Part shown: positions 112 to 9,071 of the stretch, in pieces
Numbering within the stretch: position 1 is the first letter of the stretch
Layout: each line of letters starts with the position of its first letter
Origin: Fibrobacterota bacterium
GTDB taxonomy: Bacteria; Fibrobacterota; Fibrobacteria; UBA11236
Assembly: GCA_019509785.1 (NCBI GenBank)
Contig: JAEKLQ010000040.1
Span: 1 to 64,000, forward strand
Length of the DNA: 64,000 nucleotides
Reading direction: 5' to 3'
Notes under the pieces: model-generated
Told to the model about the DNA's origin: nothing
Databases searched by the model: none
Seen by the model: the letters and a program-made list of their open reading frames with translations, nothing else
Position numbers and translations under genes: made by a program

Positions 112-1833
112 TTATTCCAGCGCTATCACCCGCAACTGGATCCGCCGCTGACCACGGAAAGTATTCCACTCCGGATAGAAAGCAATCTTCGCGAGTCGCG
201 GTTTTTCCATCACGTATTCCCGGAGGTACCCCAGGTTGAACGCGATGGCGTCGAAGAAGGCGCCGCCCGATCCCACCGTGAACTTGAGGTGCTTATCGCC
301 CACCACCTTGGGCGCGGAGCGTAGCTCCACGTCTTCGGCGTAGAACATGGGGCTCTCGTTCAAGGGGCCGAAGGGTTCGAAGCGCTGGATCCACAGCATG
401 TTCTCTTCGTTGAGCACGTCCAGGGCTATCTCCACTGCGGGTTGGATGCGCGGCACGAAGTCGTTGCCGGCCAGGTGCTCGGCGGCGGCGGCGTTCATGA
501 GCGCGCGGAAGCCTTCGATGTTACCCTCCGGGATGGTGAGGCCGCAGGCGTGGTAGTGGCCGCCCCATTTCTCGAGCAGATGGGCCGCGCCCGCCAAGGC
601 CTTGTGCAGGTTGAATCCGGTGAGGGTGCGGCCGCTGCCTTTGGCGGTCCCTTTGCCCACGTCGATGGCGAGCACGAAGCAGGGCCGGCGATAGCGCTCC
701 ACCAGGCGCGCGGCGACGATGCCGATCACGCCTTCGTGCCATTCCGGGGACGCGACGACCAGGCAGCCGGCCTCGAGGAAGGCAGGGTCGCCGTCGATCA
801 TGCGCACGGCCTGTTCGGTGATCAGCTGATCGAGTTTGCGGCGCTTCTGGTTCTCGGCCACCATCAGGTCCAGATAGCCTTCGGCCTCAGCGGGGGAAGC
901 GGAGAGCAGGAGGCGCGCGCTGATTTCGGGGCTGCCCATGCGGCCCATGGCGTTGAGCATGGGCGTGACCTTGAAGAGGATCTCGCCGGAGGAGATGCGG
1001 CCGGGCTCCAGGCCGGCCCGGTCCATGAGGCCGCGCAGGCCTGGGTTTTCGGTGGCGGCCAGGCGGCGTAGGCCCGTCTTCACCAGGCGGCGGTTCTCGC
1101 CGGTCAGGGGGACGTTGTCGGCCAGGCTGCCCAGGGCCAACAGGTCCAGGAAGCGCTCGGCGGTCTCGCCCTTGAGGGAATTGGCCAGGGCGTTCAGTAA
1201 CTTGTAGGCTACCCCGACTCCGGAGAGGCCTTTGTTGGGGAACGGGCATCCGGGTTGGTTGGGATTGAGGATGGCGTCGGCCGGGGGCAATTCCCCCGAG
1301 GCCTGGTGGTGATCGGTGAGGATGACGCCGATCCCCAGTTCCTTGGCTTTCGCGACCTCGGCGTTGGCGGATATGCCGGTGTCCACGGAAATGATCCAGC
1401 GGGCGCCGCGGGCGCGCAGCTTTTCCACGCTGGCGAAGGAGATGCCGTAGCCCTCTTGGAAACGGTTGGGCAGGAACCAGTCCGCGTTGAAGCCCAGCCA
1501 TTTGAGGCCCTGGTAGAGCAGGGCCGTGGCGGTTACCCCGTCCACGTCGTAATCGCCGTGGACGCAAACCAATTCGCCGGCGGCATGGGCCGCGCGCAAG
1601 AGTTCCACCGCGCGCGGGAGGCCCAGCATGCAAGGGTCCTCGGCCAGGGTCTGCGCTCCCAGGGCGGCCAGGAAGAATTCGCGCGCTTGTTCCTTCTCTT
1701 CGATGCCGCGTTGCAAGAGCAGATCGGCGACGAAGGCGGGGCCGTTGATTTCCCGGGATAGCCTTTCGCGCAACGGATGGACGGCCGTCTCGGGTTTCAG
1801 GATGACGGCGGGAACGACGGGCTTCTTCAGCAT
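112..1833 (-). CDS. recJ: Single-stranded-DNA-specific exonuclease RecJ
   Basis: RecJ degrades single-stranded DNA 5' to 3' during recombinational and mismatch repair in the cytoplasm. The 573-residue product has the usual RecJ length and the DHH phosphoesterase motifs: DYDVDG at residues 94-99, DTG near 151 and DHH at 174-176. These are followed by the DHHA1 part (GGH and ACGLTI region) and the C-terminal OB region. The frame stays open far upstream, but the ATG at 1833 gives a normal N-terminus and overlaps the holB stop by seven bases (ATGCTGA), so it was chosen. It is the downstream partner of holB, probably translationally coupled. Confidence 0.93.
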   Translation of the reverse strand: MLKKPVVPAVILKPETAVHPLRERLSREINGPAFVADLLLQRGIEEKEQAREFFLAALGAQTLAEDPCMLGLPRAVELLRAAHAAGELVCVHGDYDVDGVTATALLYQGLKWLGFNADWFLPNRFQEGYGISFASVEKLRARGARWIISVDTGISANAEVAKAKELGIGVILTDHHQASGELPPADAILNPNQPGCPFPNKGLSGVGVAYKLLNALANSLKGETAERFLDLLALGSLADNVPLTGENRRLVKTGLRRLAATENPGLRGLMDRAGLEPGRISSGEILFKVTPMLNAMGRMGSPEISARLLLSASPAEAEGYLDLMVAENQKRRKLDQLITEQAVRMIDGDPAFLEAGCLVVASPEWHEGVIGIVAARLVERYRRPCFVLAIDVGKGTAKGSGRTLTGFNLHKALAGAAHLLEKWGGHYHACGLTIPEGNIEGFRALMNAAAAEHLAGNDFVPRIQPAVEIALDVLNEENMLWIQRFEPFGPLNESPMFYAEDVELRSAPKVVGDKHLKFTVGSGGAFFDAIAFNLGYLREYVMEKPRLAKIAFYPEWNTFRGQRRIQLRVIALE

Positions 1834-3011
1834 ACGGGGGCCAGCTTTTGCAGGTACTCCAAGTACAGCCCGAAAGCGGCGTTCTTGGGTTTGGCGTAAT
1901 CTCGGACGGCCGCCAGCAACTCTTCCAGCCAGGCCGCGAGGGGCCGGAGATCGGCGGCCGCTTCCAGCGGAAGGAGGACTTCGGCCAGGGAAGCGTCGAA
2001 CCCTTGGGCGGAAAGCGCGGCGCGGGTCCAAGCGCCCGGAGCGGCGGCCCCGGGACCATCGGGCGGGGAACCGGCGATGCGCAAGCGCAAGGCGAGGCGG
2101 ATGACGCGAAGGAGAAAGGCCAGCTGCCGCGCGGCGGAGGCCAGATCTTCGAAGGCGGGGGAGGCTTCCAGATAATCGGCGAAGGCCAGGCCGTTCCCGG
2201 AGGCGGTAGAGGGATCGAGGGCGACCGCGAAGAAGCGGGCGGCTTCGGCGATCAGGTCTTCGCCGCCGTTGCGATGGAGGGCCAGCAAGGTCCCCGGCGA
2301 GCCTTCGGCGAAGGGAAGCAAGCGCTCGGGCACGGTGGGCATGTCCCAAGCCGTGGCGCGGTCGGCCGCGGCGGCGCGCAAGGCGGCCGGGCCCATGGGG
2401 AAGAGCGGAAGCTGGGTGCAGCGCGAAACGATGGTAGGGAGGAGCGCGCCGCGGTCTTCGCAGGCGATCAGGAAATAGGTGTCCGACGGGGGCTCTTCCA
2501 GGGTCTTAAGCAGGGCGTTGGCGACCGGGGCCTCCATGCTTTCGGCCTTGATCATGATGGCCACCTTTGATCTGCCGCCCGTCAAGGAGTAGGAGATTTT
2601 GCCCTGCAGGTCGCCGATCTGGGCGATGCGGATGATGGCCTTCTCCGCCGGGGCGAATCCGTACGGGTCCGCGGACAAGGAGGCGATCCCTTCCGTCAAT
2701 TCGTCCACCTGGGACTGGGTCAGGGAACGCGAATCGCCGGCGTCCGATTTCTCCACCAGAGGGAGGACGAAGTGCAGGTTGTCCAGGTTGCCGCGGCGGC
2801 GTCCCAGGCAGCCGGGACAAGCCCCGCAGGGCCGCCGGGCCGCGTCTTCGCAGACCAGCAGATCGGCGATGTCGAGGGCCAAGGCGTTCTGGCCCGCCCC
2901 TTGGGGCCCATGGATAAGCAGGCCGTGGGGGAATTTGCCCGAGGACAAGGCCCGGGACAGGAAAGCCCGGGCATCATCGAGTCCTAAGGTGCGGCTAAAG
3001 GCGATCTCCAT
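1827..3011 (-). CDS. holB: DNA polymerase III delta' subunit
   Basis: This is a clamp-loader subunit of the replicative polymerase. The 394-residue product has an AAA+ N-terminal domain, a four-Cys zinc module (C-x8-C-x2-C-x2-C near residues 53-68), the clamp-loader SRC motif (IVSRC) and a variable helical C-terminus. The P-loop at about 35-43 reads GPQGAGQNA, with Gln where the catalytic Lys of GxxGxGK should be. That suits a delta' subunit, which need not hydrolyse ATP, rather than DnaX. The ATG at 3011 is the only sensible start. The stop overlaps recJ. Confidence 0.85.
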   Translation of the reverse strand: MEIAFSRTLGLDDARAFLSRALSSGKFPHGLLIHGPQGAGQNALALDIADLLVCEDAARRPCGACPGCLGRRRGNLDNLHFVLPLVEKSDAGDSRSLTQSQVDELTEGIASLSADPYGFAPAEKAIIRIAQIGDLQGKISYSLTGGRSKVAIMIKAESMEAPVANALLKTLEEPPSDTYFLIACEDRGALLPTIVSRCTQLPLFPMGPAALRAAAADRATAWDMPTVPERLLPFAEGSPGTLLALHRNGGEDLIAEAARFFAVALDPSTASGNGLAFADYLEASPAFEDLASAARQLAFLLRVIRLALRLRIAGSPPDGPGAAAPGAWTRAALSAQGFDASLAEVLLPLEAAADLRPLAAWLEELLAAVRDYAKPKNAAFGLYLEYLQKLAPVC

Positions 3012-3119: not shown

Positions 3120-4370
3120 CTACTTGCCTCCCGATCGCAGCCATTCGGCCGGATCAAGGGTCTTGGTGCCTTTGCGCACCTCGAAGTAGACCCGGCCGGC
3201 TTCGGTGCTGACCGCGCCCAGTTCCTGGCAGGTCTTGATCTTGTCGCCCTGCCGCACGCGGATGCCCGCGAGATTGGCGTAGATGGTGTAGACGTCCGAG
3301 CCGTTATCGAGGATCACTCCCATCCCGTAGCCGGGGATGCGGCTGATGAGGGCGACCTCGCCGCTTACGGCCGCGTGTACGCTGGCGCCGGGGGCGCCCT
3401 TGATTTCGATACCCAGATTCTTGGTGGTGGTCTTGAGGGTGGCGTGGTATTGCAGGCCGTATTTCGAGACGACCTCGCCTTGCACGGGCAGGCAGTACTT
3501 GGTCCCCGTCTCCAACGTCGTCACGGCCTTTTTGCCGCGGGCCTGTTCTTCCTTGCGGCGCTTCTCCAGGGTGACGATGATCTCGTTGATGAGGCGCGCG
3601 TTCTCTTCCATCTCGGCCAGGGCCTGTTGCTTGGACTTCTCGTCCGATTGCAGGGCGACCAGGCGCTTCTCCTGTTCGCGCCGGGCGCGGGAGAAGGTTT
3701 CCCTTTCCTCCGCCTTGCGCGAACGGAAGCGCGATAGCTCGGCCATGCGGGCATCCAACTTGCCGGCGGCGCGGCGTTTGAGCTCCGCGTCCTCGCGGGA
3801 GGCTTCCACCAGTTCCCGGTCGTAGCGGAGCACGCGCTTCATGAAGAAGACCTTACGCATGAAATCGCCGCTTCCGGTCTCCCATCCCCGCATGACGAAC
3901 CGATCCGGCCCGCCTTCCATGTAAAGCGCCCGGACGCGTTTGGCCATGACCTGGTTCCGCTCGCGGATGCGGGCTTCTATCCCCGCCAAATCCTCCCGCA
4001 CGGCCGACAGCGACTTGCCCAGGGTCCCTTCCGTGGAATCGAGCCGCAGTAGGTATTCCTCGGTGTGGCGGATGTTTCCTTCCAGCTTTTCCAGGGTACC
4101 CAGAGTGGAGACCTTTCGCTCGCGCAAATCGGCCAACTCCCGCTGTTCGCTCTTCAAGCGGTCGCGTAAATCGTCGAGCTCTTGCTTTTGCCGCGCGATT
4201 TCGCGATCGTAGTCGCGCTTCTCCAGGCCGGCGGCCGGCCGCAGGCAGAGCGCCAGCAGCGCGAGCCCGATCGCCGGCCGAAGCGTAAAGCTTGCGCGTC
4301 GCGAGGGCTGCGCCGCCGGCGTATCGGACTTAACGACTGCTGGTTCCATCCGCATCGTACGCCTGGCCAT
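3120..4370 (-). CDS. envC: EnvC-like murein hydrolase activator, degenerate LytM domain
   Basis: The protein has a short basic N-terminus, a membrane or signal segment around residues 29-48 and a long coiled coil (about 50-290, rich in Glu, Lys and Arg). It ends in a C-terminal M23/LytM domain. The zinc ligands of active M23 peptidases are replaced: NLGIEI instead of HxGxD, YANL instead of YxHL, and YFEVR instead of HFE. EnvC-type proteins with such dead LytM domains switch on amidases that split septal peptidoglycan, under control of FtsEX. The gene sits 6 nt downstream of ftsX, which supports that role. Length 416 residues; the exact start is uncertain because several ATGs occur in the first eight codons. 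Confidence 0.8.
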   Translation of the reverse strand: MARRTMRMEPAVVKSDTPAAQPSRRASFTLRPAIGLALLALCLRPAAGLEKRDYDREIARQKQELDDLRDRLKSEQRELADLRERKVSTLGTLEKLEGNIRHTEEYLLRLDSTEGTLGKSLSAVREDLAGIEARIRERNQVMAKRVRALYMEGGPDRFVMRGWETGSGDFMRKVFFMKRVLRYDRELVEASREDAELKRRAAGKLDARMAELSRFRSRKAEERETFSRARREQEKRLVALQSDEKSKQQALAEMEENARLINEIIVTLEKRRKEEQARGKKAVTTLETGTKYCLPVQGEVVSKYGLQYHATLKTTTKNLGIEIKGAPGASVHAAVSGEVALISRIPGYGMGVILDNGSDVYTIYANLAGIRVRQGDKIKTCQELGAVSTEAGRVYFEVRKGTKTLDPAEWLRSGGK

Positions 4371-4376
4371 TTAACC

Positions 4377-5255
4377 TCAGGCCGCGTGCCCGCGCAGGAA
4401 ATCCCGTACGGTGCGCGCGCTCGCGACGGCGGCGATGGCGGCGGTGGCGGCCATCAGTGCCAGCGAGCAGGCCGCGAAGGGAACCCGCGCGGCCAGGCCC
4501 TCGGAAACGATGCGCGCGAGACCCGTCAGGAAGGCCAAGGCGGCGACGCCGATAAGGCTGCCGAGCAGCCCGAGCAGAACGCCTTCGAGCAAGAAAGGGG
4601 CGAGTATGAAGAATTGGCCCGCGCCGCAATATTTCATGTTTTCCACCAGGATGCGGCGGGAGTAGAGGTTGAGCTTTATGGAATTGTGGATGATGAGGGA
4701 GAGCGCGCCCGCCACCAGCAGCATCAAGAGGCTCGCGCCCCATTCCACCGGGGCCCGCCATTTGTCCAGCCACGCCAGGTAGAGGGAGTTGGCTTCGGCT
4801 TCTTCCACCTCCTCGAACTGCCGCGCGCGGTCGAGAAGCAGATGGTTCTGCGCCGACGACCGGAAGCCTTCGGAAGGATAAAGCAGGAAGGAATGGGGGA
4901 GGGGATTCCAATCCAGGGATCGGATCATCTCGTCACCGAAATCACGTTTGAACTCGGCCAGGGCGTCGTCCTTGCTCACGAAGACCACCGAATCCAGGCC
5001 TTGCAGCCGCCGCAGCTTGGACTCCAGCCGATCGAGGGAGGCTTGGTCCTCGTATTTGGCCCCGGGGAAGACGCGCACCACGCTGTCCTTGGCCCCCCCG
5101 CGCCCCAGGGACCAGACCATGGCGAAGGCGAGCAGGAGCCCGGCGAATACCGAAGTGCAAATGCCGATGGTTATGACGGAGGTGATGGAGAGGAACTTGT
5201 CGGAGCGGAACCCGCGGAAGGCTTCTAGGAGCAGGTAGCCGATCTGGTTCTTCAT
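4377..5255 (-). CDS. ftsX: Cell division protein FtsX (ABC-type permease)
   Basis: FtsX is the membrane partner of the FtsE ATPase and passes a signal across the inner membrane to periplasmic activators such as EnvC. The 292-residue protein has the FtsX layout: one membrane segment near residues 22-50, a periplasmic domain (about 55-165), then three more segments near 170-195, 208-240 and 257-282. It begins MKNQIGYLLLEAFRGF, typical of the family. The gene is followed at 6 nt by the EnvC-like gene. No ftsE lies next to it: upstream is the non-coding island, so ftsE must be elsewhere or missing. Confidence 0.88.
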   Translation of the reverse strand: MKNQIGYLLLEAFRGFRSDKFLSITSVITIGICTSVFAGLLLAFAMVWSLGRGGAKDSVVRVFPGAKYEDQASLDRLESKLRRLQGLDSVVFVSKDDALAEFKRDFGDEMIRSLDWNPLPHSFLLYPSEGFRSSAQNHLLLDRARQFEEVEEAEANSLYLAWLDKWRAPVEWGASLLMLLVAGALSLIIHNSIKLNLYSRRILVENMKYCGAGQFFILAPFLLEGVLLGLLGSLIGVAALAFLTGLARIVSEGLAARVPFAACSLALMAATAAIAAVASARTVRDFLRGHAA

Positions 5256-5312
5256 GTGGCTATCCGTAAGGTAGCAAAGCGATTGTGGGAAGATTGGGGG
5301 CGGTCTATGCGC

Positions 5313-5506
5313 GCGGGGGCGGGTCTTCGGTCCGGTTCGGATGCTCGCTTTCGGCGCGATGGGTCTTTACACGGCGCGGGAAGGGTCGCGCCCGCAAATC
5401 GCCCCTGGGATCGTTGCTACGTGTATGCGGGCTTTCCGGACGCGGCATCGAATCCCTTCCCGCGCCTTGAAGCTCGCAACTCACCGGACCGAAGCCCCGC
5501 CCCCGC
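5313..5506. repeat. Nested long inverted repeat (structured element 1)
   Basis: Three concentric helices can form. The outer arms 5313-5336 and 5483-5506 are 24-nt inverted copies with one mismatch. The middle arms 5373-5385 and 5454-5466 are 13 nt and perfect (GGCGCGGGAAGGG with its complement). The inner arms 5390-5396 and 5426-5432 are 7 nt and perfect (GCCCGCA/TGCGGGC). Such stacking over 194 nt in non-coding DNA suggests a structured RNA or a cruciform-forming repeat. No known RNA family was recognised, and the coding strand is unknown. Confidence 0.6.
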
Positions 5507-5945
5507 CCGCGGGCCGCCCCCTTCGTCCCGCGCTTGGCGGCCTTCCGGTTTTGGCGGGCTATGCTGGTCTTATGGCTGTGTCGCTTGTATGCCGCTCTTG
5601 CTCGCGGGGCTCCTTTGGACGGGGTCCTCAATAGCCGCGCTCGGAGGGTTCGGGGAGGTCGTTTCTTCGTCGAAGACCCTGCGGTCGCTGGGACGCTGTC
5701 GGGGTTCCGATCGGGCCTGTCCGTGCGCGCGCAATTCTACGGACCCCGCTCCCGAACCGCTTTACCTCCGCCCCCGCAAGACCGAACGCTACGACGGCCC
5801 CTCGCCCCCGCAAAAACCCATCGCATACACACCTTGCCTCCGCCGCGGCCCCCTTCCACCGCAAATCGCATAGGCGGTGGGCCTCCCCGGCCGCGGTAGG
5901 CGGTGCGGGTCCGGGGCGCGGTTCCGCCGCATCAAGGCGGAGGTA

Positions 5946-6042
5946 GATTCGGGAAGGAGAGCGGACCGCAGCGCTCAGAAAGCCCGCGTGCGCGAAACAT
6001 CGATCGCGAAGGGAGATACGCGGGCGTCCTCCTTCCCGAATC
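5946..6042. repeat. Nested inverted repeat (structured element 2)
   Basis: The arms 5946-5959 and 6029-6042 are perfect 14-nt inverted copies (GATTCGGGAAGGAG and its complement). Inside them, GCCCGCGT at 5982-5989 pairs with ACGCGGGC at 6018-6025, and a short CGCGA/TCGCG helix can close the tip. A local GCGG-A-CCGC sequence lies at 5961-5969. This is a second element in the same island with the same nested design but different sequence. It lies about 90 nt beyond the 3' end of the gene ending at 6134, so on the minus strand it could also be part of that transcript's tail. Confidence 0.55.
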
Positions 6043-6133
6043 GTACGGCGACCTATCTCTTCGTGAAGCCTTGCCCGCGGCGGAACCGCGCCCCGGACCC
6101 GCCCCGCGGAACAGGGGCAGGAAGCCAGCCGGC

Positions 6134-7990
6134 CTATCCCGCCTGCGTCTGCGCCGGCGCGACGGAAGCGCTCGGCTGGGCCTGCGGGTTGATCTCGCGG
6201 AACAAGAAGCTCGGGCGGTGGTACACGTAATAGCCCGGGAAATCCCGATGCGATCCGTGGGCCTGGAAGCGGATCTTCGCTAGGGAAACCTCTTGCAGGA
6301 TTTTCACGGCCGGGAGATCCAACCGGAAAGCGGCCTCCCATTCCGCCGGATTCGCGGGACGGCCGCCCGATTCCCGCGAGCCGTCGTGATCGAATTCCAA
6401 TCGGTAATCCGCCAAACCGAGGCAGGGATCATCCGCCGCCTCGGCGCTACCCGCCAGGCGTACCGTCCAGAGGGAAGCGTTGAAGTCCCGCAGGCGCGTC
6501 TTCATCAGGGCCAGCCCGCGGAAAACGCCTCCCTTATCCGTTCCCGTGAACTCGTCCAGGTTGTCGATCAGGATCACCAGCGGGGCTTGCGCGGTGCCGC
6601 GTTTACGTTGCTTGGGCAGGAAATCATGCTCGATATACTTGAGCAATTGGTCCAGGCCGTCGTCCCGGTTACAGGGGATCAATTGCGGGGGGTTCGGGAA
6701 CAAGGCGTCATAGGCTTTGGCCAGCGATCCCGCCGCCGGCACGCCGCCCGATGGTTTACCCGCCAGCGGGTTGCCGCGGTAATGGCGCGACAAGGAAGCC
6801 AGGGCCAGTTCCCCCAGCGACCGCCGCTTGGAGAATACCAGAACCTGGCCGGTGCCTTCCTTTACGAAACCTTCCGCGCTTTGCAGCAGGAATTGGAAAG
6901 CCGGCTCGCCCGCGAAGGGATCGCAACGCAGCATCAGCAACTCCCCGCATCCCGCGCCCTGATGGATCTTGTTGAAGGTGGAGGAATACAAAGGCCAGCG
7001 CCATTTGCCCCGCAGGTAATCCTGGAACCAGTTTTCCAAGGCGCGCAAATCCTCGCGCGGAGCATGCCCGGAGTGTTCCTGGTTGTCCTCCGCTTGCGCG
7101 GTTTCCCGTTCCATCACCGCGCTCGCCGCGCTCTCGTATTGCGGTTCGCCCGTCTCGCTCCAGCTCTGCGATAGGCCCTGGATGTTGGAGGGCGGCGCGT
7201 AATTTTCGCCGAGCGGCCTCTCCTTGGGGCGCTTGGCTTCGAAGACCTCTTCGAATAAGGCCCCGATGGTCGCCTCCTCGCCCGGTTCCAACTCGCCCGA
7301 AGACGTCACCACCATGCTGTCAGGCGCGTCCGGCACGAAAATGCCCGGCAGGCCCGGCACTGGATCGAAAATCTTCCCCGTCACCGACGAGGTCAGGGCG
7401 AATCGCTTATGATCCTGCGTCGTCATCTTCTTTTCCAAGGCTTCCAAGAGCTTCTTGGTGGCTAATGCCAAGCCCGGTTTCGACAACGGCCTCCGGTGCA
7501 ATGCCGCCGGCGCCCACAAGCGCACCGCCACCCCCGTCAGGAAATAATCCAGGCTATACCGTTTCGCGCCGATGCGCCCTAGGATCGATTCGATCTCATG
7601 CACGAAGTTGACCGCCTCGGAGGGATGCGTGCCGGGCGCCGTCATCTCCTGGATTAGTTCGGGTTTGAACAATAGGCAGAAACTCAAGGAATGCGCCCGC
7701 GCTTGATCCTGCCCGGAGAATTCCGCCAGGCTCCGGTCGAACTGGTTATAGGCCGCGCGCGTCGGGATCTGCGCTTGGTTGTACGCGAAATTGCTCAAGC
7801 AGAAATTGCACCGTCCCACTAACCCGCGACAGGCTTCCAAGAGAAAGTCGGGATCATTGAAGAAGCCGCGGCCCTCGATCTTGTTGGCCTTCGCGTTGAC
7901 GAGCAGGATTTCCAGGTACGCCTTGCCTCCTTCGGAAAGGGGAACGAAGGTCTTGAGCAGATCGGGTTTGCTGAATAAGGATGAGTGCAT
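6134..7990 (-). CDS. Predicted inactive primase-polymerase/DnaB-like fusion protein
   Basis: This 618-residue protein of unknown role seems to combine two replication folds. Residues 38-84 (GRGFFNDPDFLLEA, then CNFC and NQAQIP) resemble the opening of prophage-type archaeo-eukaryotic primase (AEP, PrimPol) domains. The acidic metal site expected next reads LSFCLLFKP (102-110), and the usual SGNGxHL strand reads LTGVAVRLW (151-159), so the catalytic residues look lost. Residues 345-600 follow the DnaB/RecA order: GELLMLRCDPFAGEPAF at the P-loop position without GxxGK[ST], a VLVFSKRRSLGELA strand-helix, Walker-B-like LVILIDNLDEF (471-481), and late strands ending in a YHRPSF-like segment. An acidic linker (about 225-310) joins the halves. 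The ATG at 7990 was chosen; it is divergent from tsaD. The fold assignment is inference. Confidence 0.45.
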   Translation of the reverse strand: MHSSLFSKPDLLKTFVPLSEGGKAYLEILLVNAKANKIEGRGFFNDPDFLLEACRGLVGRCNFCLSNFAYNQAQIPTRAAYNQFDRSLAEFSGQDQARAHSLSFCLLFKPELIQEMTAPGTHPSEAVNFVHEIESILGRIGAKRYSLDYFLTGVAVRLWAPAALHRRPLSKPGLALATKKLLEALEKKMTTQDHKRFALTSSVTGKIFDPVPGLPGIFVPDAPDSMVVTSSGELEPGEEATIGALFEEVFEAKRPKERPLGENYAPPSNIQGLSQSWSETGEPQYESAASAVMERETAQAEDNQEHSGHAPREDLRALENWFQDYLRGKWRWPLYSSTFNKIHQGAGCGELLMLRCDPFAGEPAFQFLLQSAEGFVKEGTGQVLVFSKRRSLGELALASLSRHYRGNPLAGKPSGGVPAAGSLAKAYDALFPNPPQLIPCNRDDGLDQLLKYIEHDFLPKQRKRGTAQAPLVILIDNLDEFTGTDKGGVFRGLALMKTRLRDFNASLWTVRLAGSAEAADDPCLGLADYRLEFDHDGSRESGGRPANPAEWEAAFRLDLPAVKILQEVSLAKIRFQAHGSHRDFPGYYVYHRPSFLFREINPQAQPSASVAPAQTQAG

Positions 7991-8069: not shown

Positions 8070-9071
8070 GTGGTAACCCTCGGAATCGAAACCTCTTGCG
8101 ACGAAACCGCCTGCGGCATCGTCGACGACGGCATGCGCGTATTGGCCAACGCCATCCACAGCCAGATCGATCTGCACGCGGTATACGGGGGCGTGGTTCC
8201 CGAAATCGCCGCCCGCGCCCATCTTGAAAAGATCGACCCCATCGTCCGCGCCGCCCTGGAGGCCGCGTCCCTCGATCTTTCCCAAGTCGATCAAATCGCC
8301 TTCACCCGCGGTCCCGGCTTGCTGGGACCGCTCCTGGTCGGCGCCTCTTTCGCCCGCGCCCTCGCGCGTTCCCTGGGCAAGCCCGTCGCCGGCGTCAATC
8401 ATCTCGAAGGCCATCTCGCCTCCGCCTTCCTGGAGGCGCCTGATCTCGCGCCGCCCCTGCTCTGCCTGGTCGTCTCCGGCGGCCATACCGAATTCATCAA
8501 GGTGGATGCCGGGCTCCGCTACACCGTCCTCGGCAAAACCCGCGACGATGCCGCCGGCGAGGCCTTCGACAAGTGCGGCAAAATCCTGGGGCTGGGCTAT
8601 CCCGCCGGCCCGCTGGTCGCCAAGCTGGCCGCCGGCGGCCGTCGCGACTTCCTGGCCCTACCGCGCGCCCTGGATCGGCAGGACAACTTCGAGTTCTCCT
8701 TCAGCGGCCTCAAGACCGCCGTCCTCCGGTACGTCCAATCCGCCGATCCGGACGCCATCCGAAACCAATTGCCCCATATTTGCGCCTCCCTGGAATCGGC
8801 CATCGTCGAGGTGCTGGTGAAGAAAGCGGGGCAGGCGCTGGACTGGGCAGGGTGCGATTCCCTGGCCGTGGTGGGCGGCGTTTCCGCCAATGCCCATTTG
8901 CGCGAACGCATGGCGGAAGCGGGCCGCAAACGCGGATTCCGCGTCGTTTTCCCTTCTCCCTGGCTCTGCGGGGACAACGGCGCCATGATTGCCGCCATCG
9001 CGCAATGGCGCGCCAACCATGGGATCCAGGTGACCGAAACGGCCGTAAACCCTTCCCTGACTTGGGCCTGA
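8070..9071 (+). CDS. tsaD: tRNA N6-adenosine threonylcarbamoyltransferase TsaD
   Basis: TsaD transfers threonylcarbamoyl to A37 of tRNAs that read ANN codons, working with TsaB, TsaE and TsaC in the cytoplasm. The protein starts VTLGIETSCDET, the family's opening motif. It has the metal-binding NHLEGH, the ATP-binding SGGHTE and GEAFDKCGKILGLGYP, and the late GGVSANAHLRE and CGDNGAMIA motifs. The GTG at 8070 gives 333 residues, the normal size. A TTG at 8061 is an alternative, since GGGAG lies only two bases before the GTG. The frame is open further upstream but that part is unrelated. It is divergent from the primase-helicase-like gene, with 79 nt between. Confidence 0.93.
   Translation: MVTLGIETSCDETACGIVDDGMRVLANAIHSQIDLHAVYGGVVPEIAARAHLEKIDPIVRAALEAASLDLSQVDQIAFTRGPGLLGPLLVGASFARALARSLGKPVAGVNHLEGHLASAFLEAPDLAPPLLCLVVSGGHTEFIKVDAGLRYTVLGKTRDDAAGEAFDKCGKILGLGYPAGPLVAKLAAGGRRDFLALPRALDRQDNFEFSFSGLKTAVLRYVQSADPDAIRNQLPHICASLESAIVEVLVKKAGQALDWAGCDSLAVVGGVSANAHLRERMAEAGRKRGFRVVFPSPWLCGDNGAMIAAIAQWRANHGIQVTETAVNPSLTWA

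Follow-up and report, generated by a model that had tools for sequence, protein, structure and literature searches.

Gene X and its genomic setting

The window, meaning the whole stretch of 64,000 nucleotides analysed here, carries on its minus strand, at positions 6134 to 7990, a gene which we name X. It encodes a protein of 618 amino acids that combines an AEP-like half with a DnaB-like half and that appears to be a pseudoenzyme. The start codon was placed at 7990, and not at the longer mechanical start at 8242, because the first methionine (M1) is invariant in the alignment of all eight orthologues. On the same strand, X is followed by ftsX (4377 to 5255), an envC-like gene (3120 to 4370), a holB-like gene for the clamp-loader delta' subunit (1827 to 3011) and recJ (112 to 1860, 5' end approximate). 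The divergent neighbour of X in the genus is tsaD, located 79 bp away on the plus strand (8070 to 9071).

Orthologues of X were found in all five other genomes of the genus that were searched (52–74% identity) and, at about 20–23% identity, in two genomes from a second family in the class. The set of eight used throughout this work thus consists of six species of the genus, the window included, and two of the distant family; the public records carrying X are MAGs. The reading frame is intact in all eight species. In the other family, X again stands directly before the ftsX-envC-holB-recJ run, with ftsX as the next gene downstream, while the divergent neighbour differs. No phage genes were recognised in the neighbourhood examined (recJ, holB, envC, ftsX, tsaD, pyrC), in agreement with what had been claimed from the window.

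Neither X nor its family matches any entry of Pfam, PHROGs, NCBIfam or PADLOC in single-sequence and family-wise scans of all eight members, and direct sequence relatives were not found among viral contigs, plasmids and phages. The only matches by sequence among solved structures were designed helical bundles (4e-4 to 0.4), which were judged to be a composition effect and set aside.

The gap between X and ftsX measures about 12–75 bp in relatives and 878 bp in the window (5256 to 6133). This spacer is missing in relatives; pieces of about 30–200 bp recur on other contigs of the genome with 67–90% identity, and short internal inverted repeats are present. Dispersed repeats seem to have accumulated here.

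The N-terminal half resembles AEP/PrimPol domains

An AEP/PrimPol-like domain was assigned to about residues 25–200 (7391 to 7918, minus strand) by HH comparison with a viral AEP profile and by the order of secondary structure elements. The AEP comparison family was gathered from viral contigs and is characterised by the motifs GYFDD, TLNPVNPALLARA-NR, hhhDhDP and SGNGxHLLY. Its first query was a hand-written consensus and the later profiles contain retrieved sequences only; the retrieved matches show that this viral mobile-element family is real.

Against 84 viral AEP domains, the N half of X reached an HH score of 27.9, compared with a mean of 14.2 and a maximum of 19.9 in the column-shuffle null (0/120 shuffles, z 5.6). 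The two distant orthologues alone scored 32.0 (0/120), and the genus-only profile, not significant at first, gave a modest 24.3 (1/120) with the deep template. Unrelated decoy families did not exceed 20.2. GGDEF, another palm-fold family that was considered in place of AEP, scored only 15.0 and is unsupported by the profile. In the profile register, GFFND falls on GYFDD, CRNPRP of the distant family on TLNPVNP and NQF on NR; the strands of motifs I and II align in place, and the predicted strand–helix order fits the AEP core.

A model of the N half alone has a pLDDT of 50. Its best PDB matches in Foldseek, the top three, are to the human primase PriS with weak E-values of 0.06–0.1, and LigD polymerase and other palm folds rank behind. 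Because of the low confidence of this model, the case for the AEP half is built on profiles and not on a fold match. The sequence-only reading had recognised an AEP/PrimPol pattern from GFFNDPDFL and NQAQIP, both present in the protein (NQF being the counterpart of the latter), and the profile comparison bears it out. The N half is very probably AEP-like, and AEP ancestry is likely.

The C-terminal half has the DnaB fold

The second domain, DnaB-like with a RecA fold, spans about residues 335–602 (6185 to 6988, minus strand) and was assigned by Foldseek and HH. AlphaFold2, given the alignment of the eight sequences, produced a full-length model whose pLDDT averages 56 overall and lies at about 70–90 over most of the core (residues 350–520). 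In a Foldseek search of the PDB with this model, Thermus aquaticus DnaB (2q6t) came first (E 1.4e-9, probability 1.0), and the first 50 matches are nearly all DnaB, G40P, T7 gp4 or Twinkle, apart from isolated chains of KaiC and BCDX2. A search of a viral library agrees with DnaB; there, the alignments of a few primase-helicases extend across 630–780 columns and span both halves. A structure resembling neither fold had been named beforehand as the result that would speak against the assignment; what prediction returned is a match to DnaB.

Profile comparison points in the same direction. The C half scored HH 28.7 against a profile of phage and Fibrobacterota DnaB (z 5.8, 0/100 shuffles), the column-shuffle null having a mean of 14.2, a standard deviation of 2.5 and a maximum of 20.5, and decoy families staying at or below 23.4. 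The score was not significant against chromosomal DnaB alone (6/100) and not convincing against phage DnaB alone (2/100), and the genus-only C profile was insignificant throughout. Given the genus-only and chromosomal-only results, the case for this half is mainly structural.

In the alignment, DPFAGE lies opposite the P-loop, LVFSKRR opposite the strand bearing the catalytic Glu at its end, and VILIDNLDEF opposite Walker B. In the Walker-B-like strand (LIDNLDEF, 6548 to 6571, minus strand), D476, D479 and F481 are invariant in all eight orthologues; D476 is the retained Walker-B Asp and aligns with LDN/IDN of phage DnaB. The sequence AKIR (6269 to 6280, minus strand), with Arg in 7/8 orthologues, would correspond to the KxR arginine-finger position of DnaB, judging by sequence pattern and strand order. 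The DnaB order proposed earlier for this half therefore holds, and we regard its DnaB likeness as almost certain.

Loss of both active sites

In AEPs, motif I (hhhDhD) provides metal ligands. The equivalent strand of X (7661 to 7684, minus strand) reads CLLFKP, or LLWR in the distant family, and contains none; the motif I acids (hhhDhD/E) are replaced in all eight orthologues. The motif II hairpin (SGNGxH in AEPs; 7517 to 7549, minus strand) reads DYFLTGVAVRL in X and ETSGxFVxVRI in the distant family, and the His of sxH is lost in every copy (FLTGVAV / SGxFVxV). The acidic residue of motif III is likewise replaced in 8/8, with this motif aligned by eye and less certain. An AEP that has been characterised cannot do without its motif I acids: changing them to Leu abolishes its activity (PMC5862659).

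The ATPase site of the C half is similarly affected. A degenerate P-loop, DPFAGE (6905 to 6922, minus strand), replaces GxxxxGKT/S in the profile alignments, and Walker A GK[ST] is missing in all eight (DPFAGE / GNSFRA). The catalytic Glu of DnaB after strand 2 is replaced by Lys, Arg or Ser in 8/8 (FSKRR / WTSSR versus FSLEM / YSGEL).

The absence of the acidic metal site and the SGNG motif, and that of the P-loop Lys beside a Walker-B-like strand, had first been noticed in the window's copy; the profile alignments extend both observations to all eight orthologues. Homologues with intact sites, which would make this copy just a decayed gene, were not found: a profile search of the phylum recovered X in 8/168 Fibrobacterota genomes and in no others, and every copy is dead at both sites. 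From the alignments, both active sites are almost certainly inactive.

Purifying selection and the linker

The dN/dS ratio of X (Nei–Gojobori) is about 0.12–0.16 in both halves for most species pairs within the genus. It rises to 0.26 in the C half of the most distant genus pair, and is higher in the linker than in both halves. Residues are invariant between the families despite an identity of about 20%. Since both halves are under purifying selection (dN/dS mostly 0.1–0.2), X is not a decaying gene, and there is little room for doubt that it has a selected function.

Within the acidic and otherwise variable linker, the best-kept stretch across both families is GLxxxWxE (GLSQxWxE, or GLxNDWxE in the distant family; residues 272–278; 7157 to 7177, minus strand). 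It is a candidate docking motif.

Relation to known AEP–helicase fusions

AEPs fused to helicases are a familiar feature of mobile elements. In phages and integrated elements the partner is a RecA-type helicase of the DnaB/RepA families, as in the PrimQH and all3500-like families, and in bacterial genomes such fusions are described as associated nearly exclusively with mobile elements (PMC5862659). Four viral contigs (L164, L177, L202, L211) encode AEP-Zn-DnaB fusions of 670–750 residues with complete AEP motifs, after which come a stretch resembling a Zn-binding site and a DnaB-like domain whose P-loop is intact. When the full-length X profile was compared with these intact fusions, the two best pieces, individually weak, were collinear, one per domain. 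The AEP consensus of the viral fusion family itself gives only sub-threshold Pfam matches.

Like the fusions of phages and integrated elements, X places an AEP-like domain before a DnaB-like one and shares with them the GxFxD and N-R/NQF motifs, the strand order and the position of the Walker-B strand. Unlike them, it lacks the metal site, the motif II His, the P-loop Lys, the catalytic Glu and the Zn-binding stretch (CPF...HCFHNGC) between the two domains, and it has a constant place in the chromosome, upstream of ftsX. With DnaB, Twinkle and T7 gp4 it has in common the RecA fold, the Walker-B Asp and a residue at the KxR position; in contrast to DnaB, its ATPase site is destroyed and the DnaB N-terminal domain is absent.

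Distribution and history of the locus

Most Fibrobacterota have no X, including close relatives that have the ftsX-envC-holB-recJ run as well. X is therefore no general need of FtsEX. In the nearest relatives without X, ftsX faces tsaD directly or across other small genes. A diverged and undetected X in relatives without a match was ruled out at the locus, where ftsX faces tsaD or another gene. In two sister-genus genomes (L071, L072), the slot of X between ftsX and tsaD is occupied by a MarR-type regulator and a nitroreductase-like gene.

In a tree of FtsX, EnvC and RecJ, the X-bearing genus groups with an X-less genus (genus 2) and an X-less family (family 2), whereas the second family that carries X falls with the X-less families 3 and 5. 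Because X-bearing groups cluster with X-less ones, two histories come into consideration: either X was ancestral and has been lost at least three times, or it was transferred between lineages, arriving at the same site. No intact member of the viral AEP comparison family was detected in the X-bearing genomes with a query that finds 5/5 known positives in a control.

Possible function

X is a conserved pseudoenzyme whose origin was most likely a mobile-element primase-helicase. We propose that it is related to the AEP(PrimPol)-DnaB fusions of mobile elements, has been domesticated and has lost catalysis, so that it would neither prime nor unwind DNA. Both folds would survive as binding surfaces, namely the AEP-like palm, the DnaB-like subunit face with its Arg-finger-like residue and the GLxxxWxE linker motif, and X would act as a non-catalytic scaffold or regulator. 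A domesticated scaffold or regulator is also what the sequence-only reading had suggested; purifying selection argues for the domestication, and the role as scaffold or regulator keeps the standing of a proposal. The site of action would most likely be cell division: X would be co-produced with FtsX and EnvC, and its target would be FtsEX or the DNA close to where the cell divides. Taken as a whole, this explanation has, in our estimation, slightly less than an even chance of being correct, and the division link is its likeliest but least secure step.

In E. coli, FtsX is described as driving septal peptidoglycan splitting with FtsE and EnvC (PMC11139282, PMC7668044). As ftsX is the conserved genomic partner of X, a division-linked regulator is put first among the possible functions; that X acts with FtsX-EnvC, a suggestion drawn from gene neighbourhood, is tentative. 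A more specific variant, in which X reads the state of DNA or forks near the division plane and signals to FtsEX-EnvC, so that a captured viral primase-helicase would serve as a checkpoint between replication and peptidoglycan splitting, is a long shot.

In the main rival reading, X would be a scaffold for DNA damage or replication forks in the manner of ImuA/ImuB, a pair that organises an active polymerase, and would act with HolB, RecJ or the replisome. DNA repair offers a precedent for a polymerase and a RecA fold that have lost catalysis and act as scaffolds: ImuA, which is homologous to RecA but has neither Walker A nor Walker B, and ImuB, a polymerase without catalytic activity (PMC6511836). 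They differ from X in belonging to other families (RecA for ImuA, Y-family polymerases for ImuB), in being two separate proteins and in being LexA-regulated with dnaE2. The downstream position of holB and recJ in the same orientation fits such a role; however, both genes follow ftsX-envC in the same order in X-less genomes too, so they are no special partners of X, and we consider this role rather unlikely.

A dead co-assembling subunit could act dominant-negatively. X might in this way join or poison the AEP-DnaB replisomes of invading phages and plasmids, as its likely ancestry from mobile-element replication proteins and its patchy distribution would allow. A defence decoy of this kind is nevertheless improbable, with all eight members lacking a PADLOC match, a locus that is a fixed housekeeping site in two families and not a defence island, and divergence within the genus that is not accelerated.

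It is very improbable that X still binds nucleotide or catalyses a reaction through the non-canonical but invariant residues D46, D48, D209, D476 and D479. Several acidic residues are invariant across the two families and known active AEPs vary in motif II (PMC5862659), but every copy has other residues in place of the motif I acids and the P-loop Lys, on which the characterised relatives depend. Finally, the reading of X as a pseudogene in decay, the remnant of an element integrated long ago, for which the loss of both active sites and the many relatives without X might speak, is hardly credible and is refuted by the intact frames, the purifying selection on both halves and the residues kept between families.

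No description of a doubly inactivated AEP-helicase at a housekeeping locus was found in the open-access literature, nor anything relevant there on inactive primases or DnaB-like proteins. If the proposed domestication is correct, X would clearly exemplify how replication machinery, after losing both catalytic centres, took on a structural or regulatory role and was retained at a housekeeping locus. Its place in front of ftsX allows a link between replication and cell division to be put directly to the test. Even short of this, X represents a Fibrobacterota protein family that lacks annotation.

The possibility that X is a displaced or mis-called ftsE was rejected: X folds as DnaB, shows neither the ABC fold nor a match to the FtsE profile, and a canonical ftsE lies away from the X locus (G000:C61). 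Directly downstream of the canonical ftsE, both X-bearing families encode a proline-rich, probably disordered protein (L236:4817-5650, L238:5771-6538).
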